NCBI GenBank assembly: GCA_002699585.1
Contig: PABP01000014.1
Span: 372,001-436,000 of the forward strand
Origin: Anaerolineaceae bacterium
GTDB lineage: Bacteria > Chloroflexota > Anaerolineae > Aggregatilineales > Phototrophicaceae
Direction: 5' to 3'
DNA: 64,000 bases
In this document: one piece after another, positions 12,066-27,830 of the stretch
How positions within the stretch are numbered: the first letter of the stretch is position 1
Layout: each line of letters begins with the position of its first letter
Notes under the pieces: model-generated
What the model saw: only the letters and a program-made list of their open reading frames with translations
Databases searched by the model: none
What the model was told of the DNA's origin: nothing
Made by a program: the position numbers and the translations under genes

Positions 12066-14816
12066 CTAAGCGTCGGGGATGACCGTATCCGGATGGTACT
12101 GTTCCAGCACGCTCAGGTCGAAGACATTGGCGCAGGACAATTCGCCAGTTTGCACAGCATCGATGTAGGGGGCGAGGATATCGGCTTGCGCGCTATTGCG
12201 TACACTATCCAGGTCGTTCTGCATGCGCTCACGATTGCCCATTTCTCCGGCGGCGCTGGCGCGCATCAGACGGGCGAAGGAAAAGGTCCGGTCGAAGTTG
12301 ACGACGTTGCTAAAGGCCAAGCTGGCCCGCGCATAATTGCCCTGGCCGCACTCAGCGATACCCGTCAATAGCAGCAGCGTTTCATCACCACCGAACAGGC
12401 CGGGGCTGCTGTTGCTGCCATTGAACTGCTCGGCAATGTCCGAGGCGGCACTGTACTGGCCAATCACCAGATTGCTGAAGATCCCCGGTATCAGGCTCTC
12501 AGGGATGGTAACGCCGATCAGCACATCGAACATGCGCGTGGATACGGTGTAATCCGGGAAATCAGTAACAATGGTTGCGACATAATCGTGGACTGCTACC
12601 AGATCGCCCTGACGCAGCGCCAGCAACAAGGCCGAGGTATAGGGCAAGGTCACATCTGGTTGGGACTCCAAAGCGCGGTCGATGTACTCACGCGCCAAGT
12701 CGATGTCACCCGATTTGTAGGCCAGTTCCGCACGGATATACAGCGGCGTCCAATCGTCACTACGTAAAGACACCGCTACTTCAATTTCGCTGACGTTATT
12801 GACGATAATCAGGTTACTTTTGCGATTGCCAACCGAGCTGCCATCCAAATGCGAGAACAGGGGCATCACCCAGTTATCCGGGCCAAGCCGCTTGGCTGTT
12901 TCAAAATCCTGGGCGACTGTCTCACGGAGGGTATTCAGTTGGGTCGGGGGCAACAGTTCATCGACGAATTCGATCAGGTACGTGCGGTTACGCGCCATCG
13001 CCCGCAGCCAATACAGAATGGCATTCCCCGGTTCGGCTCGGATGGCGGCATTGATACAGGTTACAGCGCTGTTGGGAGAGTCCATATACCGTTGGAAGTA
13101 GCAATGGGTATTCGCAGCGGAGGACTGCACGACAGTCGGCAGCGTGACGTCAGGGGGTATGATCGCGATCATGCGCGCCCAGTCGGCCAGGTTGCCATCG
13201 GCGCCATACATCATGCCAGCGACACCGGCCACATAAGGTGCGATGCTTTCTGTCTGCGGGTTATTCATTTCCAGGCGCACATTGGCCACGCGGTCGATGC
13301 TGGCCCGTGGGAAGTGTATCGTCGGGAAAAGCGCCATACTACCCGCCTGGACATCCAGCAACACGCGACTGTCATCATAAGTGCCCCAGACGATCACTGC
13401 CGCCTGTTCCTGATTGGCTACAGCCAGCGCTTCGTCCTGGTCATCAATCGCTTGCGAATAACGAACGATGTCCAGTTTGGTATGCGTATTTTCAATTTCG
13501 TAGCGCTGTTCCAGATCATCCACAATCATGCGCGTGACATCGCGCTGGGCTGCCCCGGAAAGCGGCTGAATATCGGCAATCAGCACGCGCAGGGGGTCAT
13601 TCGCTGAAGGCAGCACGATTTTACCTTCAGGATCATCGGCTTCTGCCGGGTTGAGCAACCCACTGGCCAGCAGGCTAACAAGCGCCAGAGCAACGACCAC
13701 AAGCGCCATCAACGCCATACCCCACACCGGGATACGACGCCCGGACGCGGCAAGCTCCAGCACCGTTTGGGATACATCCGTTGATTCAGGATGCTCATCT
13801 GTGGCGGGCATGTCCATCTCAATGTGTCGGGTTTTAGAATCGTTCGCTACATCAATGTCCTCTTTGGAGGCATTGGCAGTGAAAGCAGGCAGTTTCGTGT
13901 TGGTTGGGGTATTAAAGCGACTCTCTGAGGAAACTACCCCTGGATTGGCTGCTGTTAAGGAGGGCAAGACCTCAGTCGGGCTGTCGAGCGCATTCAGCAA
14001 ATTCTCTAGCTCGGCACCCACGCGACGGACGCTGTTGATACGCCGTTCGGGGTCTTTTTCTAGCATCTGCCGGATGAGTTCAAACACGGTGATGGGCACA
14101 TCATGGCGCAGTTGCGTTAGGTCGGGTACCGGACGTGTGAGGATAGCCGTCACCCGCGCTGTGACCGTCTCGCCTTCAAACGGGCGCTGGCCCACCAGCA
14201 TTTCAAAGAGCAGGATGCCAAAAGCCCAGACATCCGTGCGCGCATCAAAAGGTAAGCCATTAAGCGCTTCTGGCGAGAGATAATTGACCGTGCCAACCAC
14301 TGCCCCGGTGCGCGTGACCTCCGGCTTATCGCTGAGATAGGCCACACCGAAGTCAGTCAGGCGTGGGGTGCCATCCTCGGCCAGCAAGATATTGGCCGGT
14401 TTCAAATCACGATGGATGATGCGCATCCGATGGGCGCGTGTCAGGGCATCGGCAATATCCAGGGCGATTTCCAGCGTACGGCGCAAGGGCAGTGCGCCAT
14501 ACTCATCCAGATAATCGCGCAGGTTGCCGCCGGGGACGTATTCCATGACGATGTAATGGTCGGGGGGCTGGTTAACCGATGCCAAAACCTTCACAATGTT
14601 CGGATGGTCGAGCCGCCGCAGGGCTTCCGCTTCACGGGCGAAGCGCTCCAATGTTTCCGGGCGATCCCGCACAACCGAACCCAGCAGTTGCTTGATAGCC
14701 ACCTGCTGGCCGGTCTGGGTATCCACGCCCAAATACACCGTGCCCATACCGCCGGTGCCAAGGATATATTCCGGTTCTGTATTTAGCTCAAACCGTTCGC
14801 CGATGATTACAGTCAC
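12066..14816 (-). CDS. Transmembrane Ser/Thr protein kinase with C-terminal repeat domain
   Basis: About 916 aa using a GTG at 14816 (AGGTGG 8 nt upstream); an in-frame upstream ATG would add 13 residues. The N-terminal Hanks-type kinase is complete: glycine loop 'GTGGMGTVYLG' (about 20-30), catalytic Lys42 in VAIK, 'HRDLKPAN' (135-142), DFG (155-157), 'GTVNYLSPE' and 'DVWAFGILLFEML'. A linker and one membrane helix ('MALMALVVVALALVSLLASG', about 362-382) lead to a large domain probably outside the membrane. That domain has TPR-like repeats ('AELAYKSGDIDLAREYIDRA') and a segment resembling a nucleotide-free TolB-like fold ('QAAVIVWGTYDDSRV'). It likely signals in response to an external cue. 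Confidence 0.9.
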   Translation of the reverse strand: MTVIIGERFELNTEPEYILGTGGMGTVYLGVDTQTGQQVAIKQLLGSVVRDRPETLERFAREAEALRRLDHPNIVKVLASVNQPPDHYIVMEYVPGGNLRDYLDEYGALPLRRTLEIALDIADALTRAHRMRIIHRDLKPANILLAEDGTPRLTDFGVAYLSDKPEVTRTGAVVGTVNYLSPEALNGLPFDARTDVWAFGILLFEMLVGQRPFEGETVTARVTAILTRPVPDLTQLRHDVPITVFELIRQMLEKDPERRINSVRRVGAELENLLNALDSPTEVLPSLTAANPGVVSSESRFNTPTNTKLPAFTANASKEDIDVANDSKTRHIEMDMPATDEHPESTDVSQTVLELAASGRRIPVWGMALMALVVVALALVSLLASGLLNPAEADDPEGKIVLPSANDPLRVLIADIQPLSGAAQRDVTRMIVDDLEQRYEIENTHTKLDIVRYSQAIDDQDEALAVANQEQAAVIVWGTYDDSRVLLDVQAGSMALFPTIHFPRASIDRVANVRLEMNNPQTESIAPYVAGVAGMMYGADGNLADWARMIAIIPPDVTLPTVVQSSAANTHCYFQRYMDSPNSAVTCINAAIRAEPGNAILYWLRAMARNRTYLIEFVDELLPPTQLNTLRETVAQDFETAKRLGPDNWVMPLFSHLDGSSVGNRKSNLIIVNNVSEIEVAVSLRSDDWTPLYIRAELAYKSGDIDLAREYIDRALESQPDVTLPYTSALLLALRQGDLVAVHDYVATIVTDFPDYTVSTRMFDVLIGVTIPESLIPGIFSNLVIGQYSAASDIAEQFNGSNSSPGLFGGDETLLLLTGIAECGQGNYARASLAFSNVVNFDRTFSFARLMRASAAGEMGNRERMQNDLDSVRNSAQADILAPYIDAVQTGELSCANVFDLSVLEQYHPDTVIPDA

Positions 14817-15084
14817 CGCTGCCCACCTGTGACGATTATGGAGGCGTTTGTACACGCCCTGGTGCCAGGAGCACCTTTAAGTCACTGTCCGTTTTAATTA
14901 CTCTTCGTTTTAATCACTCTTATTGTACTGTCGTATCGTGCTTTTACAGACTTAACATGCTTGAGAGTTGACAATGATTTTGTATTTTACCTGGCACGTA
15001 TCATGACTAGCTAGCAATTTATTACTATTCATTATCATTTGCAAGCAAATCGGGGACATTTTGCAGGGGGCTATTACTGTAGTA

Positions 15085-17614: not shown

Positions 17615-18769
17615 TCAATTCCAGGCCAGCACATAACGACCGCGCGTGCGCTGATCGGTGGCGGAATACAGGTAAGTCACACCATCGAGCACGATAACAT
17701 CCGCGTGGCCAATACCCCAGTTAAAGGCGACATCCTGAATGATGGGATTGCCGGGGAACAACTCCCAGGGACCGTCGATCGCATCCAGCGGGGCACGGGC
17801 AAAACCCAGCGCGAACTGCGTATCCATACCGCGTTCGAGTTCATCCGGCCCACGAATGCCTTCGTAAAACATGTAGAGATAATCGCCATCGGCCAGGAGA
17901 TCGGCACTGCTGATATAGCGAAAATCAAAATAGGGGTTGGCATCCGCACCGGAAAGCGCCACAGGGCCGTATTCGGTCGCGCCGGAAAAAAGCGGGTCAG
18001 TGTCGCAGAGCTGTAATTCATCCAGTGGGCCGTGACGGGCACCTTTGTAGCAGCGCATATGCGCCGGGGCTGACCCAGCCGCCACGAACACGTACAGAAT
18101 ATCGCCATCAACGTACAATCCGGGCGGCGCACCCACCAGGCAGCCGTCCGCCTGCCCACGGATGAAGGGGTGCTCACCAATACGCTCAATGTCACTGCAT
18201 GGATCGTAGCTCATCGGCCAGGTACCACCGGGTACACGCAGATAGGCCCAATCCGACCAGTTGAGACCATCTTCCGAGGTGCGCAGGATAGTCTGGGCAT
18301 GCCATTCATAAGCCATGTAGAACAGGTCGTCAGTGGCCACCACGCGCGGGTACTGCTGGGCCGTGATGTGGTCACGCTGGTCATCGCAGGGGCAGGCTTC
18401 ACAGGTCATCATGCAAAAAGGCGCGGTCAGCGAGAAGGATTGACCGTTGTCTTCGCTTTCCCATAGGGTAGTACAACCGGGGAACTCGACTGGCTGGCCG
18501 CACTGGTCGAGGATACCGCTCGACTCATAACTGGCGTGCAGATACGACCAGAGCACGCCCTCGCCTCTATCCAGGGTATCGCTTTCGCCAATAGGCAGTC
18601 CAACATCAGCCAGATCGACCTGCCAATGGGCGCGCCCTTCCCAGAAATCGAGCAACGTGGGCGGGGCATCCTGGGCATGCAGGCCGATGCCTACCACAAA
18701 CAGCCCTATATATAGGAACAGTACGGCCCATTGCGACTTTTTTGTAACGAAATTGCCTATAAGTTTCAT
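17615..18769 (-). CDS. Exported beta-propeller protein, glycosidase-like
   Basis: 384 aa. The N-terminus has a charged start and a hydrophobic helix ending in 'IGLHAQDAPP', a likely signal peptide. The rest shows repeated beta motifs such as 'TTLWESEDNGQSFSLTAPF', 'ILRTSEDGLNWSDWAYLR' and 'DYLYMFYEGIRG', the pattern of sialidase (Asp-box) or five-bladed glycoside-hydrolase propellers. A Cys-rich loop ('CMMTCEACPCDD') may hold disulfides or a metal. The probable role is binding or cleavage of extracellular glycans. The exact family is uncertain. Confidence 0.6.
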   Translation of the reverse strand: MKLIGNFVTKKSQWAVLFLYIGLFVVGIGLHAQDAPPTLLDFWEGRAHWQVDLADVGLPIGESDTLDRGEGVLWSYLHASYESSGILDQCGQPVEFPGCTTLWESEDNGQSFSLTAPFCMMTCEACPCDDQRDHITAQQYPRVVATDDLFYMAYEWHAQTILRTSEDGLNWSDWAYLRVPGGTWPMSYDPCSDIERIGEHPFIRGQADGCLVGAPPGLYVDGDILYVFVAAGSAPAHMRCYKGARHGPLDELQLCDTDPLFSGATEYGPVALSGADANPYFDFRYISSADLLADGDYLYMFYEGIRGPDELERGMDTQFALGFARAPLDAIDGPWELFPGNPIIQDVAFNWGIGHADVIVLDGVTYLYSATDQRTRGRYVLAWN

Positions 18770-19020: not shown

Positions 19021-22000
19021 ATGGCGGAAATCAACCTCAGAGATTATCTCAGGCAGATTGATACATTCGTCCGGCGCGGCAATCTGGATGAAGCTGTCGC
19101 CCATGCGCGGCATGTGCTGGCGAAGTACCCTAAAAACGGGGCAGCGTATCGCAACATGGCCCGCGCTCTGATCGGCCAATCGCAATGGTCGCAAGCCCTG
19201 GACGTGCTGCAACGGCTGGCTACAGCCCATATCGACGACCCCTGGGTACAAGCACACCTGGGTTATGTGTATCGTCGCCTGCAAGACTTAGACAAGGCGC
19301 TGTATCACTATGAACGTGCCTTTGACCTCTCCCCAAATGATGCCAACGTCATCAAAAACCTGCGTGAGCTTTACCAGGAGCGCTACGACAAGCCCCTGGA
19401 ACGCATGCATCTGACAGCCGGCGCGGCTGCCGGGCAGTTCATCCACAACGAGCTTTACGACCAGGCAGTCAATACCATCCAGCAAACGCTGGACCAGACG
19501 CCCAATCGACCAGACCTCAAGCTGATGATGGCCCAGGCCCTGTGGCAAAGCGGTCGGTATGTGGATGCCGCTGAACAAGCCTTTGATGTGCTCAAACAGT
19601 TGCCCTACTGCGTGACAGCCAACAGCATGCTGGCTGAATTATGGTTGCAAGAGCAGCGTCCGACCGACGCCCAGCGCTTCTTAAGCCGCGTAGAAGATGT
19701 GGAGCCGTATCTGGCGGTGGAAATCGCCACCGATGCGCGCGCCGATGATGACCTGTTCCATATGGAAGTGCTCAATTATGAGCAGTATGCCCAGCAAACG
19801 CTGGCCGAACAACGGCCAGAATGGTTGGAAACGCTGGATGAGGCTGAAGAAGATGCCCAGCGAGTGGCAGCAGCCGAAGCGGCTGATATCGAAGCCGAGG
19901 TACCGGACACAAGCGACGATCCAGAACTCGCCGATGACGCGATGGATTGGCTGGCAGACCTGGAACCGGAAGAAGAAGATGCCAGTGTGGATCTTCAGCA
20001 TTTGTTTGACGATATGGACGATGGCGAGCAAGTCATCAGCGAAACGCCAGTTGACGAATTCCAGCGTACCCCAACGGGCTTAACAGGCATGTTGGGTGAA
20101 GATGTTGCTGATCTCGATTTAGCCGACATCCTGGGCGAAGAAGACGAGCGTTTCCGGTCCCGTAAGACTGAAAACCTCTCCGGCATGCTCAACCGCGTCA
20201 CAGATGAACTTGAAGACGAAGATGACATTTTTGACTTGGAAAGCGGCGATGAGCATGTCTCGACTGGCCTGACAGGCATCCTCAGTAAGTTCGATGAAGA
20301 CGAGGATGATGACCTCAGTTGGCTGGCCGATGCCCAAACGGGCCGCTTCGATACGGGGCCATTGGAAGAAGCCGACGCCATCATCGAAGAAGAAACAGGT
20401 GAGCAGCCTGTTCCTGAGCCAGAAGCCGAAAGTCCAGAAGAACCGTCTTTTGAAGAACCCTCCTTCGAGGACATGTTCGACTCGCAAATGCGGACCGAGC
20501 AAGGCATTGTTGAGAACGAGAGCTACGAGTTTGAAGACTTTGAGCAGTTCCAGCAAACCGTGCCCGGCGATAATGAGTTAGCCTTCGCCAAAGATGACAT
20601 GGCCGACGATATCCCGGCTGAAGTTGAGGATAACGCACCTCCGCCCATCCTGTTTGAAGACAGTGATGATGCCGAAGAAGGTGACGTCGTCGAGCAAGCG
20701 GAAATCGACACGAGTTGGTTCGAGTCGCAGCTCAGTATCAACGAGGAAGCCGATGAAGTAACCGACCAACCAACCGATACAGCCGACGAACCCATCACCG
20801 GAACAGGTTCACTGGACTCGATGGCCTGGATGCATACCAGCGGCGTCGAATTCAACGAAGAAGCCGAGGCGGAGCAACCCAAGTTCTACGAAGAAATTGA
20901 TGACGACGAAGTTGGCATTAGCGGCTCTGAACAGAACGCGATGGCCTGGATGGAAGATAGTGGCATCGAATTTGAGACGGATGCTGATGTCGACTACGAT
21001 GAAATCGCCCAGAACTTCATACCGACTTCGCGGCTGGATGAACAAGACGACGAATCCATGGCCTGGATGCGGGACAGCGGCGCGGAGTTCATTGACGAGC
21101 TGATTGATAATATGCCTGAGGTTGAACCGGATCAGCCAGAAGCTAACCTTGAAACAGCAGCCAATATAGAGGCAGACACCAGCTCGGAAGAAGCCAATTT
21201 AGACGATCTCGATTGGGCTGATGAATCCGCGCTGGAAGAACTGCTTGAAATGGAAACCCTGGCGGAAACAGGTAGCCTTTCTTCAAATGCTGTCGATGAC
21301 TACGAAGGCTTGCTTGACGAGGACAATGCAGACGAAACAGAGTCTGAAGAAGCTCCCAGCGCGCCATCCGACAGTGAGGAAGACGACCCCGATTTTTTTA
21401 GCATGACCGATGACGATGAGGGCAGCTCGACCTTCGGCGGGGATGTGCGCGAAGCCGATTTTGATTTCGAGACAACGCCCGAAGAAGAAATCATCGACGA
21501 GCAAATCATTGACGAACAAAACATTGATGAGCAGGTAATCGACGAACAAGATATTGACTTTGATGCGTACGACGAAAACCTGTACGACGAAAACACATTT
21601 GATGAAAACATATTTGATGAGAGCGAGCTGGGCGACGAAACAAGCGACGCCGAGCAGTTTATTCAACCCCTATCCGACGACATATCCGAGACGATAGATT
21701 GGCAGGACACGATGCCCGATCAACCAAATTCGAAAGACTGGGAACCCGAAGATATGCAGCCAGATGACGAGAACATCGACCCGTTTGACGAACTTTTCAA
21801 TGACTTCGGTGATGATGACCCAGAAGACGCGGATTCAGAGCAGGATGCGGCCCTGGAATTAGATGAAAACTGGTTGGAAGAAGTCGCATCGGATAGTGAC
21901 ATTGAAGATGAAGAGAAATTGGCCACAGCCGATGCCGACTGGTTAAGCGAAATCGGTGCCCCGGACCAGAGTGATCTGGTTGATGAAGATGCGGTTTCCG

Positions 22001-24501
22001 ATATGGATACCCTGGAAGATGTCGCTGAACTTGAAGGGGCCGATCTCGAAAATGCCGATTGGCTGAGCCAGATAGACTTCGACAGTGATGAGGGCGACGA
22101 AGACTTTGAAGATGTCGAATTGGTCAACAGCACCGATGACCTCGTCACAGAGGGCAATGAGTGGCTGCAAGGCCTCAGCGGCGATACAGGCGATACAGAG
22201 GAAGAAGCCGCAGGCGATTTCAGCGACATTGACAACGCCTTTGCCGACCTGGAATTTGACGAAGAAGACGCTGGCGAAACGCTCAGCGAAGTTGAGATGG
22301 TTGAGAGCAAAGATGACCTCGTCACCGAAGGCAATGATTGGCTGCAAGGTATCAGCAACGACCTTGAAGACACCGATCAAGATGCCTTTGAGGACATCGA
22401 TAAAGCCTTTGCTGACCTGGAATTTGACGAAGAAGACGCTGGCGAAACGCTCAGTGAAGTTGAGACGGTCGCTAGCGAAGACGAACTCGTCACAGAGGGC
22501 AACGAATGGTTGCAGGGCATCAGCAACGACTTTGAAGAAACTGGCGATGAAAACGCTGATGACGACTTTGGGGAATTCAACTTCGACGAAGAACAGGCTG
22601 AAGAATTCCTGGGCGAGCTAGAAATGGTCGAAGAAGCGGACGATCTGGTCACAGAGGGCAATGACTGGCTGCAAGATGTCAGTAATGACCTCGAAGAAGA
22701 GACTGAAAGCAGCTTGGAAGCCTTCGATAGCTTTGACGAAGCGTTCGGTGACTTCCAGACAGACACCCAAGAGGATAGCGACGAGCTGGCCGCAGAAGCG
22801 TCGCTCGATGGCTCGACGATGTTCCTGGATAACCAGCTCACGACCGAAGGTAGCGACCTCACGGAAGAAGAGGAGCAACCGTCGTCTGAGATCGAATTTG
22901 AGGACCCCTTCGCGGAAACGTTCGACGATGACCTACCGCGTCCCAGTGGCATGACGGGCCTGCTGGATAACATCAGTGCCAATGTCAACAAAAGCGACAC
23001 AGCTGATGATCTGCCCGATTGGAACGCACCGATGGAAGAAGGCGAGTTCGAGGAACCGGACTGGCTATCATCGCTGGATGCTGATGAAGAAAGCAGCTCG
23101 GAAGAACCCGAATGGCTAGCCGAGATGGACGTTGACGATACCGAAGTTGAAGACTTCGAGTTTGATGAAGAAGAGCAAGATGCCATCGCCGCCAGCGTCG
23201 GCGCGTCGGATGACAGTGAATCCGATGACAGTGCGGCTGACCCTGATTGGCTGAGCGGCATGGTCGAGGACATCGAAGCCGAGGAGTTACCCGAAGAACT
23301 CACCGCCAGCGACCCCGATTGGCTGGCTGACATGGAACCGCCTGATCCAGAGGCGACCGCGGCAGAAGAAGAAGCCTTCATGTCTGAGCTGGAAGATGCG
23401 CTATACACCGAGGAAACCGGCGATGAGGTCATGACCGATGACGCCGAGCCAGGTGCCATCTTGCCGCATGATGATGAGAAAGAAGACATCCTCACGGGTG
23501 TTGAGGCCGGTGCCGCCGCACTGGGCATGGTTGCTGTCAGTGGCGACGAGGAAAGCGACGACGCAGACAACATTGTTGAAGAAGAATTTATCGCTGAGGA
23601 TAGTGAGCCAGTCTACGATTACGAAGAAGGCCGCTATACCAACCGCAACACCGACGACGCCAATGTTTACACAACCGCTGAGATTGATGCGGTCATGGGC
23701 GACGAAGACGATATTGCGGATGCCGATGAACTGGTCGCAGGCATGGAGTTCGGCGTTGATGATGCTTACCTGGACGAATACGCCGATGAATACAGCGAAG
23801 TATCCGGTGACGATGCCGAAGAAGATGCCGATCTGATCCCGGCGGACAACGCACCGGACTGGTTAAACCAGATGGTCCCCGGCCTGGACCTGGACTTTGA
23901 AGCGCGCGACGAGGACGACGAGGGTGCCGATAGCGATGTCGATAGCAGCCACCGCCGCCGCGAAGCCGTTGGCGAGGTCCCCTCGGAAGATGATTATGGC
24001 TGGCTGGAAGACATCGTCGAAGAAGAAACCCAGGCGGGTGCACCGCCACCGATCCCGACCAGCGTCCAACAAGCGGTCGTGATTCCGCCGCGCTTTAACT
24101 TCAGCCAACCGCCTGTCTGGGCACGCGGCGACAATGGCGAATCCAACGCGGGAGCGGCTGCTGCGGTAGCCACCTCAGCCGGGAGCGCTATCGCCGCCTC
24201 CTGGATGGATGAAGAAGTAGAAGAAGCTGTCGAAGATGACGTCACCGACGCCATGACGGATGCCAGTGACGAGTTGGACTGGAACGCCGAAGGCATGGAA
24301 GATGACTTCCAGAGTGACTTCCAGGATGAAATGGCCGACAACGAGATGCGCTTCGATGACCTGGGCGATTATGAAGACGGGTTCGACGAGGACGACAGCG
24401 AGGAAAGCGAAGGCACGGTCGATGACCTACTGGACGACCTGGGGCTTGACCTGGACCTGGAGAATTTTGACTTCGACGACCTGGACGACGACGATGACTA
24501 G
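19021..24501 (+). CDS. Giant acidic TPR protein with repeated W-L motifs
   Basis: 1826 aa. Residues about 1-215 form a clear TPR-type superhelix ('DEAVAHARHVLAKYPKNGAA', 'ALYHYERAFDLSPNDANVIK'). The remaining ~1600 residues are dominated by Asp and Glu and predicted to be disordered. Within them about twenty short motifs of the form W-[LM]-x-x-hydrophobic recur (DWLADLEP, AWMEDSG, DWLSQID, EWLQGLSGD, PDWLSSL, PDWLNQM). Three copies of the MAWM-x-x-SG-x-EF type and a four-fold block at 22111-22700 show internal duplication. No signal peptide, membrane helix or enzyme domain is seen. It is probably a cytosolic multivalent scaffold or sponge. The next gene encodes a protein of the same style. 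Confidence 0.85.
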   Translation: MAEINLRDYLRQIDTFVRRGNLDEAVAHARHVLAKYPKNGAAYRNMARALIGQSQWSQALDVLQRLATAHIDDPWVQAHLGYVYRRLQDLDKALYHYERAFDLSPNDANVIKNLRELYQERYDKPLERMHLTAGAAAGQFIHNELYDQAVNTIQQTLDQTPNRPDLKLMMAQALWQSGRYVDAAEQAFDVLKQLPYCVTANSMLAELWLQEQRPTDAQRFLSRVEDVEPYLAVEIATDARADDDLFHMEVLNYEQYAQQTLAEQRPEWLETLDEAEEDAQRVAAAEAADIEAEVPDTSDDPELADDAMDWLADLEPEEEDASVDLQHLFDDMDDGEQVISETPVDEFQRTPTGLTGMLGEDVADLDLADILGEEDERFRSRKTENLSGMLNRVTDELEDEDDIFDLESGDEHVSTGLTGILSKFDEDEDDDLSWLADAQTGRFDTGPLEEADAIIEEETGEQPVPEPEAESPEEPSFEEPSFEDMFDSQMRTEQGIVENESYEFEDFEQFQQTVPGDNELAFAKDDMADDIPAEVEDNAPPPILFEDSDDAEEGDVVEQAEIDTSWFESQLSINEEADEVTDQPTDTADEPITGTGSLDSMAWMHTSGVEFNEEAEAEQPKFYEEIDDDEVGISGSEQNAMAWMEDSGIEFETDADVDYDEIAQNFIPTSRLDEQDDESMAWMRDSGAEFIDELIDNMPEVEPDQPEANLETAANIEADTSSEEANLDDLDWADESALEELLEMETLAETGSLSSNAVDDYEGLLDEDNADETESEEAPSAPSDSEEDDPDFFSMTDDDEGSSTFGGDVREADFDFETTPEEEIIDEQIIDEQNIDEQVIDEQDIDFDAYDENLYDENTFDENIFDESELGDETSDAEQFIQPLSDDISETIDWQDTMPDQPNSKDWEPEDMQPDDENIDPFDELFNDFGDDDPEDADSEQDAALELDENWLEEVASDSDIEDEEKLATADADWLSEIGAPDQSDLVDEDAVSDMDTLEDVAELEGADLENADWLSQIDFDSDEGDEDFEDVELVNSTDDLVTEGNEWLQGLSGDTGDTEEEAAGDFSDIDNAFADLEFDEEDAGETLSEVEMVESKDDLVTEGNDWLQGISNDLEDTDQDAFEDIDKAFADLEFDEEDAGETLSEVETVASEDELVTEGNEWLQGISNDFEETGDENADDDFGEFNFDEEQAEEFLGELEMVEEADDLVTEGNDWLQDVSNDLEEETESSLEAFDSFDEAFGDFQTDTQEDSDELAAEASLDGSTMFLDNQLTTEGSDLTEEEEQPSSEIEFEDPFAETFDDDLPRPSGMTGLLDNISANVNKSDTADDLPDWNAPMEEGEFEEPDWLSSLDADEESSSEEPEWLAEMDVDDTEVEDFEFDEEEQDAIAASVGASDDSESDDSAADPDWLSGMVEDIEAEELPEELTASDPDWLADMEPPDPEATAAEEEAFMSELEDALYTEETGDEVMTDDAEPGAILPHDDEKEDILTGVEAGAAALGMVAVSGDEESDDADNIVEEEFIAEDSEPVYDYEEGRYTNRNTDDANVYTTAEIDAVMGDEDDIADADELVAGMEFGVDDAYLDEYADEYSEVSGDDAEEDADLIPADNAPDWLNQMVPGLDLDFEARDEDDEGADSDVDSSHRRREAVGEVPSEDDYGWLEDIVEEETQAGAPPPIPTSVQQAVVIPPRFNFSQPPVWARGDNGESNAGAAAAVATSAGSAIAASWMDEEVEEAVEDDVTDAMTDASDELDWNAEGMEDDFQSDFQDEMADNEMRFDDLGDYEDGFDEDDSEESEGTVDDLLDDLGLDLDLENFDFDDLDDDDD
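22111..22700 (+). repeat. Four-fold coding tandem repeat inside the giant protein
   Basis: Four degenerate units start near 22111, 22291, 22459 and 22615. Each encodes a [VE]-x-[LMT]-V-x-x-x-D-[DE]-L-V-T-E-G-N core, then [ED]WLQ and an acidic spacer. Units 2 and 3 also share the spacer 'FADLEFDEEDAGETLSEVE' exactly. DNA identity between units 2 and 3 is high, pointing to recent duplication. Confidence 0.85.
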
Positions 24502-24544
24502 ACGTCCCACGGTGCAGATCTGATAACGAAACCTGTCATGTGCT

Positions 24545-24575
24545 ACGGCCTGGATCACAAAATACCCCAGGCCGT
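24545..24575 (+). other. Intergenic stem-loop between the two acidic genes
   Basis: ACGGCCTGG pairs with CCAGGCCGT around a 13-nt loop, about 45 nt after the first gene's stop codon. There is no T-run after it, so it is probably not a classic terminator; it may protect or separate the two transcripts. Confidence 0.5.
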
Positions 24576-24680
24576 ACCGTGTCATCACACACTTAACGCT
24601 CGTGATCTGTGCAAAACGGTTATTATTAGACTAAGGAAGCCGCTGGGCCGCCGTTAAAAGCGACAAGAAGGATAAGCAAT

Positions 24681-27600
24681 ATGTCCGATACGCCCGATTT
24701 CGAAAACATGTCTCCAGAGGAGATGATGCGCTGGATGGAATCCCTGGCCAAACGGCAAGGGGCCGATCCGACCAGCTTCACGACCGATGCAGACCTGGAA
24801 ATCGAGGAAGTCAGCGAAGACGATAGCCGCCTGGAAGAAACAGGCGAGTATATTCCCTATGGCTGGACCAAAGAAAAATGGGAAGCTCATCTGGCCAAGG
24901 AAGCCGAGGAAAAAGCATCGCGTGCGGCCAGCAGCCCCGCTCCGGCAGAGCCTACCCCAGCAGAGGAAGAAGAACATACCACGCCCATGTACACGCCGGA
25001 ACCCATCGCTGAGATGGATGATGAGTTCGCGGAAGAGATGGACGAAGAGCTAATCGGTGAGGCCATCGGCGATGAGATGCCTGATTTTGATAGTATGTCG
25101 CCGGAAGAAGCCATGCGCTGGATGGAATCCCTGGCCAAGCGGCAGGGCGCCGATCCCAGTAGCTTCTTGACCGAAGCCGATATGTCGGTTGCTGAGGTCA
25201 GCGCTGATGACGAGCGCCTATCCCAAACAGGCGAGTATATCCCCTATGGCTGGACCAAAGAAAAATGGGAAGCCCATCTGGCCAAGGAAGCTGAAGAAAA
25301 AGCCGCCAAGTCCTCCGCCAGCAGCGACGATATGCTACCCGGTTTCGACGATGTCGATGCATCCATGTACGAAGAAACCAGCGAAGATTTTGAATTCGTT
25401 AGCGCGGACGATGACGACGATCTGACCTACGAAGCCGATGACGACGACATCCCCTACGATTTCGACGAAGATGACGCCATCGATCTGGATGCTCTCGACG
25501 AAGAACCTGACATCCTTGATGAAGCGACCGAGGAACCCGAAGAAGCACCAATCTGGTCGGCAGTCACCAGCGATGACGACGAAGAGGAATTCCACCTCGA
25601 AGAACTGACATCTTCCGACGAAGCGGACTATGAAGATGAAGTCTACGAAGCGGATTACGAAAACGAGGAAGAACCCGTCGGCGCTGGCGAAAATCCCATG
25701 TCCTGGTTGCAAAACCTGGCCAATGACGACGAATCGGCTGAAGAAATCGACCTGAGTGCTTTAGAAGAAGTTCAGCAACAAGAGGCACCCGGCACGCTCG
25801 ACCCAATGGGTTGGCTGGCGGAACTAGCCGCAGAGAACAAGGCCGATACGGTTCCTGACCTGCAAAATCTGGATCTGGGCGACATCGGCGATAATCTGAC
25901 TGGTTTGGATGAAATCGCCACCAGCGCTGCCAGCGAAGACGATGGTGAAAATCCGATTGCCTGGATTGAAAGTCTGGCCCGTGACCAGGGCGCACCTTCC
26001 GAGGAATTGACGACCTCCGCTGATATGGATATCGAGCGGCCTACCAATTTCATCCCGGATGGCCCCGGCTACGAACCCTATTCCTTTGAAACAGGCGGCA
26101 AGCCCCCTGTTGAGGAAGAAGAAGCGCCACCTGAGCCAGCGATTGACGAAGAAACTGTCGCCGATATGGATATGAGCGACCCCAGTGCCTGGTTAGATGC
26201 CCTGGCCGCAGGCGTTTCCGGCGGTAAGGGCGAAAGCCGCGTCCCTGATATGGACGACGACGAAGATGAAGAAGTCGCCACAGAGACGATCTCACGCATC
26301 AACGCAGGCGAAGACGTGTCACCAGAAGAAGTCGAGAACTTCTTCGACGCCATGTTCAAGCAGGCCGAGCAATACGCCGACCGTGATGAAGACATCGACG
26401 AGGACGAAGACCAGCCCTCCGATGCCATCCCGGCGGAAATCCCCGATTGGCTGCAAGCCCAGATGGCCAGCGACACAGGCGAAGTAGAAGCTGTCAGCGG
26501 CGAACCGGAAATGTCCGCCGACGAAGCCAATGCCATGTTGGAGAAGATGTTCGGCACCGATGAGGTCGAAGCGGTCTCAGTCGATGACTTCGAGATGCCA
26601 GCCGATATGATGCTGGAAGAAGTTGATGATGAATTCGCGCTGGAAGACGAGGGTGGCGAGTTTGTGCTGGACGCAGCCGACGACTTCGCCATTGATGAAG
26701 ACCTCGACCTGTCCGGTGAGGACATCCCCGATTGGTTGACAGAAGAAATTGGCGATGAAGCTAGCGATCTGGCGGATATATTCGCGACCGACAGCGATGT
26801 CGAAGATGATGCGCCATTGACTACAGCGGACGAACCGATTGGCGTAACTGCCTCCATTGAAGCCATTCCCATGGACACGGACGACAATTGGGTCCAGGCC
26901 TTTGAAGCCGAAGCCGATCCATCCCGTCAGCAGGAATTGGCCGCCTGGTATGCCCAAAGTACTGGTGAAGAAGCCCCGGCCAACGCGCCAGTCCTACAAG
27001 CTACCGAACTACCGCTGGAACGCAACTTGCCGTTGGGTCAGGCGGAACTGGTTCCTGACTGGATGGTGGGCGAAATCGAAGGCGACGTCGCGGTGGCAAG
27101 CAGTGTCGCAGCTATCGAATCGGTCGATTTCGAGATGGAAGACGAAGCATTCGCAGCCTCTACTGATCCATTTACATTGGACGAAGACGAGTTGGTCGAG
27201 CAAGATCTGCCCGATTGGCTGGCTGATAGCAGCCCGGCCAGCGATATGCCTGACTGGCTGCAAACCGATACGGTCGAATCCGTAGACGATGAAGACCTGC
27301 CGGAATGGCTCAATATTGATGCGGATGTCGAAGTCGGCGAGATCCCCGACTGGCTGCGCGAAACGATGGACGAGGAAGACGAAACCCAGGCCATCACGCT
27401 GGAAACAGCCGAAGAGGAACCCGAAGAAGCAACCGAGGTTGTATCCGAGGAAGCAGCACCTGAACTGGAAGACGCGCCTGTTCCGGCTCCGGCGGTACAA
27501 CAGCCCGCCGCGATTGTCCCGGCACAGGAACAGCGCTCACCGGCGCCGATTCCGGCGGCAGCAGCCCAGATTAATGTGGCCGCTATCCTGGAAAATGCGC

Positions 27601-27830
27601 GCACCAAGGTCAGCAGTGGTGCGGTCGATGACAGCCTGAATGACTATGAAACCGTCATCCGCGCCAATACCGCCCTCGACGAGGTCGTCAACGACCTTAA
27701 GAAGCTGTCTGAGGACAAAGAACAGAAAAAGAACACGGCTGTCTACCGTGTGCTGGGCGATGGCCTCATGCGCCAGGGCAAGCTGCAAGACGCCCTGGAA
27801 ACCTATCGCAAAGCGCTCAAGATGCTGTAG
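24681..27830 (+). CDS. Acidic W-motif protein with duplicated N-terminal module and C-terminal TPR
   Basis: 1049 aa, start preceded by AAGGA. Residues 1-80 and about 133-210 are two copies of one module ('MSPEEMMRWMESLAKRQGAD', then 'TGEYIPYGWTKEKWEAHLAK'). A third, partial copy appears as 'PIAWIESLARDQGAPSEELT'. The middle is acidic and probably disordered with W-[LMI] motifs (PMSWLQNLA, PSAWLDALA, IPDWLQAQM, IPDWLTEEI, LPDWLADSS, IPDWLRETM), about thirteen in all. The last ~80 residues are helical and TPR-like ('GDGLMRQGKLQDALETYRKA'). It shares the motif style of the gene upstream with the TPR at the opposite end. Function unknown. Confidence 0.85.
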   Translation: MSDTPDFENMSPEEMMRWMESLAKRQGADPTSFTTDADLEIEEVSEDDSRLEETGEYIPYGWTKEKWEAHLAKEAEEKASRAASSPAPAEPTPAEEEEHTTPMYTPEPIAEMDDEFAEEMDEELIGEAIGDEMPDFDSMSPEEAMRWMESLAKRQGADPSSFLTEADMSVAEVSADDERLSQTGEYIPYGWTKEKWEAHLAKEAEEKAAKSSASSDDMLPGFDDVDASMYEETSEDFEFVSADDDDDLTYEADDDDIPYDFDEDDAIDLDALDEEPDILDEATEEPEEAPIWSAVTSDDDEEEFHLEELTSSDEADYEDEVYEADYENEEEPVGAGENPMSWLQNLANDDESAEEIDLSALEEVQQQEAPGTLDPMGWLAELAAENKADTVPDLQNLDLGDIGDNLTGLDEIATSAASEDDGENPIAWIESLARDQGAPSEELTTSADMDIERPTNFIPDGPGYEPYSFETGGKPPVEEEEAPPEPAIDEETVADMDMSDPSAWLDALAAGVSGGKGESRVPDMDDDEDEEVATETISRINAGEDVSPEEVENFFDAMFKQAEQYADRDEDIDEDEDQPSDAIPAEIPDWLQAQMASDTGEVEAVSGEPEMSADEANAMLEKMFGTDEVEAVSVDDFEMPADMMLEEVDDEFALEDEGGEFVLDAADDFAIDEDLDLSGEDIPDWLTEEIGDEASDLADIFATDSDVEDDAPLTTADEPIGVTASIEAIPMDTDDNWVQAFEAEADPSRQQELAAWYAQSTGEEAPANAPVLQATELPLERNLPLGQAELVPDWMVGEIEGDVAVASSVAAIESVDFEMEDEAFAASTDPFTLDEDELVEQDLPDWLADSSPASDMPDWLQTDTVESVDDEDLPEWLNIDADVEVGEIPDWLRETMDEEDETQAITLETAEEEPEEATEVVSEEAAPELEDAPVPAPAVQQPAAIVPAQEQRSPAPIPAAAAQINVAAILENARTKVSSGAVDDSLNDYETVIRANTALDEVVNDLKKLSEDKEQKKNTAVYRVLGDGLMRQGKLQDALETYRKALKML

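Follow-up and report, generated by a model that had tools for sequence, protein, structure and literature searches.

Arrays of short motifs in disordered scaffold proteins are well studied in eukaryotes and less so in bacteria. We focus here on two neighbouring genes, A (19021-24501) and B (24681-27830), in a stretch of 64,000 nucleotides from an Anaerolineaceae bacterium of the phylum Chloroflexota (contig PABP01000014.1, positions 372,001 to 436,000), hereafter the window; all features of A and B located below lie on its forward strand, and the coordinates, lengths and shared direction of the two genes agree exactly with an initial annotation of this DNA. A encodes 1826 aa, in which an N-terminal tetratricopeptide repeat (TPR) domain is followed by an acidic linker carrying tryptophan (W) motifs, and B encodes 1049 aa, in which an acidic W-motif linker is followed by a C-terminal TPR-like domain. 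That A and B are two halves of one multivalent motif scaffold of the Chloroflexota is the reading we favour, at a little better than even chances. Common descent with a single-chain protein, constraint on the tryptophans, disorder by composition and synteny are the parts of it that the sequences establish. No description of this protein family was found in openly accessible literature.

Comparison with described systems

First of all, kinesin light chain combines TPR with tryptophan motifs in an acidic context, the motif binding in the TPR groove; the motifs of A and B, on the other hand, have Leu at +1 and a hydrophobic residue at +4, and groove conservation in A argues against groove binding. 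Second, PEX5 is described (PMC8086558) as a long disordered region with repeated W-x-x-x-hydrophobic motifs together with a TPR domain. PEX5 differs in being a eukaryotic peroxisomal import receptor with eight WxxxF/Y motifs and a known partner, PEX14, whereas A and B have Leu, Met, Ile or Val rather than an aromatic residue at the fifth position, an added Leu at +1, often PD before the tryptophan, and a TPR or TPR-like domain at both ends of the pair. PEX5 TPR structures do appear when A is searched by fold, but the best 50 matches listed are generic TPR proteins, PEX5 being among them with many others, and a sequence search of solved structures likewise gives generic TPR proteins among the best 60 listed. 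By analogy, A and B would work most like PEX5, yet their aliphatic fifth residue, and a likeness to the PEX5 TPR that is only generic, keep us from placing them among PEX5-type receptors. Third, condensate scaffolds of the PopZ/SpmX type are also alike; we know of no W-motif array or TPR ends in PopZ, which is compared here by description. The likeness lies in their being bacterial, disordered and multivalent (PMC8849385). In A and B, multivalency and disorder are what the sequence shows. Finally, the MglA/MglB polarity module has a TPR effector, SgmX, and resembles the present case in that 9 of the 20 distant loci that we compared have a Roadblock/LC7 gene as the neighbour of the TPR protein; it differs in that the 22 near loci (the window, L068 and L069-L088) lack such a neighbour, and in that the Roadblock genes fall short of the MglB equivalog cut-off. 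We file A and B as a variant within the known multivalent motif scaffolds.

The tryptophan motifs and their constraint

The linker of A (residues 241-1826; 19741-24498) holds 27 tryptophans, the W sites lying about 50 residues apart (median). Compared with 2000 shuffles that leave composition unchanged, W-[LMI] occurs 21 times in A and 13 times in B (shuffled means 4.2 and 2.8, maxima 12 and 9), the earlier count having been about 20 and 13; W-[LMI]-x-x-[LMIV] occurs 15 and 6 times (shuffled means 0.7 and 0.5) and PDWL 4 and 5 times (shuffled mean 0.01). Of the orthologous linkers, 18 of 20 from A (all but L085 and L086) and 19 of 21 from B (all but L073 and L078) contain more copies of W-[LMI]-x-x-[LMIV] than any of 300 shuffles. 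Read over 621 tryptophans of these A linkers and 313 of these B linkers, the motif prefers Asp or Glu at −4, Pro at −2, Asp at −1 and a hydrophobic residue at +4, with Leu at +1 in a fraction of 0.61 in A and 0.65 in B. A second form, W-L-E-S-L-A-x-x-Q-G, occurs in B; motifs like WLESLA are present in 18 of 21 B linkers, in none of 20 A linkers and, with two copies each, in two of the single-chain homologues discussed below (L128 and L129). When a 69-residue segment of B is used as a query, its sole match in its own genome (E up to 1) is itself, and in this genome and 15 relatives 19 of the 27 listed matches fall at A/B loci, the remaining eight having E of 0.02 to 0.9; single motifs scattered elsewhere could escape so specific a query.

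The W positions are kept although the linkers change rapidly. Compared with G001, the only other sampled genome of the genus, in which the A TPR is 75% identical, the A linker retains 25 of 27 tryptophans while its other residues are 40% identical, and B retains 20 of 20 while its other residues are 59% identical. Two controls address alignment bias. When the tryptophans of the second protein are moved by 2-15 residues (30 trials each), W-W matches drop to means of 1.9 in A and 0.5 in B (maxima 4 and 3); when tryptophans are masked during alignment, 21 in A and 20 in B still coincide. Around the tryptophans of A, identity is 0.48-0.84 at −1 and at +1 to +5, as against 0.32-0.52 at the other positions up to ten residues away; the stretch of raised identity is broader in B than in A, from about −7 to +5. 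We take these data as demonstrating strong constraint on the W positions, which form small islands of conservation within an acidic linker that otherwise evolves fast. A lack of W conservation in orthologues, named at the outset as what would refute the initial reading, is thus not what is found.

A and B as halves of one protein

A profile of the N-terminal TPR domain (alignment A1) matches 105 of 201 sampled Chloroflexota genomes, our own included, at E up to 1e-12, and a profile of the B C-terminal domain (A2) matches 66 of 201, our own included, at 1e-5, the weaker matches of both being possibly other TPR proteins; this gives a first handle on a protein family without a name. The sole look beyond the Chloroflexota, a pattern scan, gave two loci, L068 (Anaerolineae bacterium UWPOB_ANAER4) and an alphaproteobacterial locus at 28% identity. 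Within the near sample of 61 genomes (own, genus, family and order; A counted at E < 1e-30), A is found in 53 and B in 48; both occur in 48, A alone in five, B alone in none and neither in eight. In three of the genomes with A alone (G021, G058 and G060) A is cut at a contig end.

In 16 of the 20 distant loci fetched, the N-terminal TPR and the C-terminal domain share one frame. The same holds for 56 of the 65 other genomes with an A2 match, contig and frame length being matched by hand; as to the remaining nine, the two domains lie on different contigs in seven, G115 has a weak A1 match elsewhere only, and G260 has none. Two of these nine loci were read (L161 and L162), and both are cut by a contig end. 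Each of the 22 near loci, on the other hand, has the two domains in separate frames, which are adjacent in 21 of them; the break relative to the single-chain homologues falls in the gap of 179 bases between A and B (24502-24680). The domain at the C-terminus of B (27537-27827, alignment A2) is homologous to the single-chain C-termini, and the WLESLA motif, present in B linkers and in the single chains L128 and L129 and absent from A, gives the order of the parts as A followed by B. In a tree of the N-terminal TPR, 20 split forms fall on one side of a branch (91/94), beside single-chain proteins of the same class. These comparisons identify A and B as halves of one protein that is a single chain in many other Chloroflexota. 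That the protein persists whether cut or whole argues for A and B acting together, and the tie between the two proteins that the initial annotation proposed thus gains support at the level of function.

One locus, L087 (genome G047), has an interrupted A frame, in which 309 codons hold the TPR and B lies about 4 kb downstream; sequencing error or decay would account for it. A further genome of the order, G060 (locus L160), has motifs of both the A and the B type in a single unbroken frame within the otherwise split order. Its chain, which meets the contig end before any C-terminal domain is seen, groups with the split L081 (100/99) and thus looks fused, which weakens a reading with a single fission and would imply either that the protein split twice or that it split once and was fused again. 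The two genomes of genus g19 (L158 and L159) have an A of only about 460 residues with five W[LMI]; B was not found, and ndk lies directly downstream of A; no Roadblock/LC7 gene was found in either genome. The loss in g19 was probably one event, not two.

Exchange of the motif between clades

The motif differs among the single-chain homologues. Linkers of L128-L132, L139 and L140 contain 5-10 copies of W[LMI]xx[LMIV] and lack the [FL]SLx[ED][LIFW]-type motif, while those of L134-L138 and L146 contain 11-25 copies of [FL]SLx[ED][LIFW] (shuffle maxima 1-3) and zero or one of W[LMI]xx[LMIV]; the linker of L133 was left out of this count. In the tree, the FSL group forms one branch (98/87), with L147 inside. 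One clade thus carries a PFSLEEL-like motif in the slot of the W motif, and this clade-specific motif points to a joint change of motif and partner. Provided that the motifs are docking sites, the binding site of the partner should have changed along with the motif, and the family is in this sense a natural experiment, with many motif copies, a clade in which the motif is swapped, a clade in which the protein is in two pieces and genomes that lack one half. Rather tentatively, and below even chances, these proteins may form a class of giant acidic scaffolds in the Chloroflexota in which docking motifs have been swapped between clades (W-L-x-x-hydrophobic for F-S-L-x-E-L) and one chain has been cut in another clade, the end domains being homologous throughout; the hub would perhaps be tied to Roadblock, with motif and receptor co-evolving.

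End domains and linkers

Residues 1-240 of A (19021-19740) form a domain of about six TPR, as judged from Pfam, AlphaFold2 and alignment A1 (36 sequences). Pfam TPR_19 matches at 8.5e-19 with 68.1 bits, above its cut-off of 25, and AlphaFold2 predicts a helical array over residues 6-223 with ten-residue pLDDT means mostly of 76-93 up to residue 200, in agreement with the TPR array initially assigned here. The array assigned to the C-terminus of B holds up in part: a conserved domain of about 95 residues is present in the 21 orthologues aligned, but it is short, and since TPR_2 matches it at only 3.7e-4 with 20.8 bits, below the cut-off of 27, we term it TPR-like only. In L130 and L139, several TPR models find their best stretch in the homologous C-terminus.

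Between these ends, both chains are acidic, as had been claimed, with 33% Asp/Glu and 3% Lys/Arg in A and 30% and 4% in B; “mostly” Asp/Glu, on the other hand, was an overstatement. By charge and hydropathy, both linkers lie on the disordered side (36 of 40 windows in B and nearly all of A beyond the TPR), and the disorder proposed for them is thus borne out by composition; past residue 305 of A, pLDDT is nearly all below 50 in a model built on a two-row alignment. No hydrophobic stretch rises above the usual membrane threshold, about 1.6 for a 19-residue hydropathy mean, the best means being 1.53 in A and 1.11 in B. We considered the W motif as part of a folded domain and rejected it, pLDDT being mostly below 50 outside the A TPR; the B model is too poor to judge.

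TPR domains are peptide binders, and their presence with the motifs in the same pair of proteins allows for self-assembly, in which the grooves of A and B would bind the W motifs of the other chain to form a network or condensate that needs no further partner. A tryptophan at residue 267-278, shortly after the TPR domain, is found in 21 of 21 A orthologues read, the window included (W268, the first W motif, 19813-19836); L087, in which A is broken, was left out. Such a residue could serve as a latch. However, the groove positions of the A TPR, which we take to be 2, 5, 9, 12 and 13, have a mean conservation of 0.52 (30 positions), as against 0.63 for helix-B positions (66) and 0.60 for other non-structural positions (60), and are thus lower rather than higher (Mann-Whitney p 0.02 against helix B and 0.04 against both other sets together). 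AlphaFold2 models of A and B, on two-row alignments, give no confident structure around any motif, and the FSL-type clade keeps homologous end domains with a different motif. The initial proposal that the W motifs sit in the TPR groove is thus not supported, and we regard self-assembly as unlikely. Since the A groove is not specially conserved, we prefer an external partner.

A proposed scaffold with an external partner

In the scaffold that we favour, the TPR or TPR-like domains at the two ends of the pair would be joined by long acidic disordered linkers that bear dozens of short motifs of the form [DE]xPD-W-L-x-x-[LMIV] and, in B, also W-L-E-S-L-A. Each motif may dock on the partner with low affinity, adopting a helical turn there, and the many copies would provide avidity and concentrate the partner. 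The two end domains could link A with B or bind a second client, and the negative charge would keep the linker open.

Several points weigh against this scaffold. First of all, the analysis shows no partner for it. Second, part of the W conservation is to be expected, because tryptophan changes slowly in proteins generally. Third, 6 of the 19 distant linkers measured (L141-L145 and L147) have neither motif in number. Fourth, the Asp/Glu fraction of the linkers spans 0.11 to 0.37 among homologues, and charge may thus not be the point. Fifth, the lower conservation of the predicted groove does not support binding of a conserved peptide in the A groove. Sixth, the AlphaFold2 models were built on two-row alignments, and the B model is poor throughout. 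Finally, a Roadblock gene adjoins A or B in none of the 22 near loci, the window included, and the Roadblock link is one of distant synteny only.

Roadblock genes and ndk in the neighbourhood

The neighbouring genes provide the best single guess for the partner or client, a Roadblock/LC7 regulator; synteny makes it a candidate that we would put at about one chance in four. A gene for nucleoside diphosphate kinase, ndk (PF00334), follows at 15 of the 22 near loci and at 17 of the 20 distant ones. In eight of the nine distant loci where a Roadblock/LC7 gene adjoins the A homologue, it lies between A and ndk, the neighbour profiles behind these counts having been built partly from the loci counted. 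PF03259 matches four of the five Roadblock neighbours scanned (best 4e-17). In the window, neither ndk nor a Roadblock gene stands beside A or B; downstream, the opposite strand carries recA (PF00154).

A proposal that goes further is that linker motifs bind Roadblock/LC7 dimers and that the protein organises an MglA-like GTPase module, to which ndk supplies GTP nearby. The order A-Roadblock-ndk would fit such a switch scaffold, as would the co-occurrence of losses: four of the 61 genomes of the order lack Robl_LC7, and of these two, from one genus, have a short A and no B, one has neither and one has both. Chloroflexus aurantiacus is described as a filamentous glider with MglA and a Roadblock partner (PMC3000849), and MglA groups 1 and 5 are placed in the Chloroflexi (PMC4316618). 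Against this stand the near loci, which lack a Roadblock gene, the three Roadblock genes of the window genome, all of which lie away from A and B, and the weak match of the MglB model (0.003-0.006), short of its 200-bit equivalog cut-off; ndk, moreover, is a housekeeping gene. No MglA-like GTPase was noticed in the gene lists of the loci, for which no GTPase profile was run. The switch scaffold is thus improbable, to much the same degree as self-assembly.

A segment resembling sigma-70 region 1.1

Five FSL-type chains (L134, L135, L136, L137 and L146) contain in their acidic linkers a segment resembling sigma-70 region 1.1, for example residues 1111-1174 of the L137 protein (L137, 5281-10497). 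PF03979 matches it in four of four scanned (best 5.7e-8). A profile of the segment recovers all five and, at 7e-4, region 1.1 of a solved RpoD. It also picks up one further protein, a sigma-70 factor with regions 1.1 to 4 whose gene (L128, 4228-5520) immediately precedes that of the single-chain homologue. The family might on these grounds act at RNA polymerase as an acidic, sigma-1.1-like regulator, which we consider very unlikely: by profile search the segment is in no window protein, no other near protein and no W-type single chain, and the sigma gene was seen as a neighbour in L128 only, sigma domains 2 to 4 having been scanned for at no other locus.

Growth of the motif array and further features

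A 168-bp tandem repeat in A (22225-22538; 1.9 copies, 86% matches), with DLVTEGN-[ED]-WLQ units inside, appears to reflect recent growth of the motif array. Least probable of all is that A and B are passive acidic entropic fillers or charge reservoirs whose motifs are unselected leftovers of repeat expansion, for which this repeat and the range of A orthologue linkers from 523 to 1702 aa might be cited, since the tryptophans are kept in a linker that is 40% identical and moved tryptophans match in only 1.9 of 27 cases.

A second short motif, [ST]G[LM]TG[MIL]L, has three copies in A (20074-20094, 20263-20283 and 22945-22965). Close to the A C-terminus, the conserved block NAPDWLNQMVPGLDLDFEA (23848-23904), of the form NAPDWLNxMVPGLD, is present in 12 of the 20 A orthologues searched. 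In B, a first unit, PDFENMSPEEMMRWMESLAKRQGAD ... GWTKEKWEAHLAKEAEEKA (24693-24917), is followed by a copy of it (25080-25304), and PDWL-type motifs cluster from W590 to W891 (26433-27365).

Upstream of A in the window, a divergent gene on the reverse strand (17615-18769) encodes a protein of 384 aa that has no Pfam match and is kept, at about 380 aa, in 9 of the 22 near loci. Also on the reverse strand, some 4 kb upstream of A, is a large serine/threonine protein kinase (12066-14855; PF00069 at 1.7e-57), the C-terminal half of which has a weak TPR match. By clustering, an extra TPR gene lies near A and B in 7 of the 22 near loci, L068 (1215-3530), L071, L074, L077, L082, L083 and L086, its Pfam assignment being that of the L068 copy.

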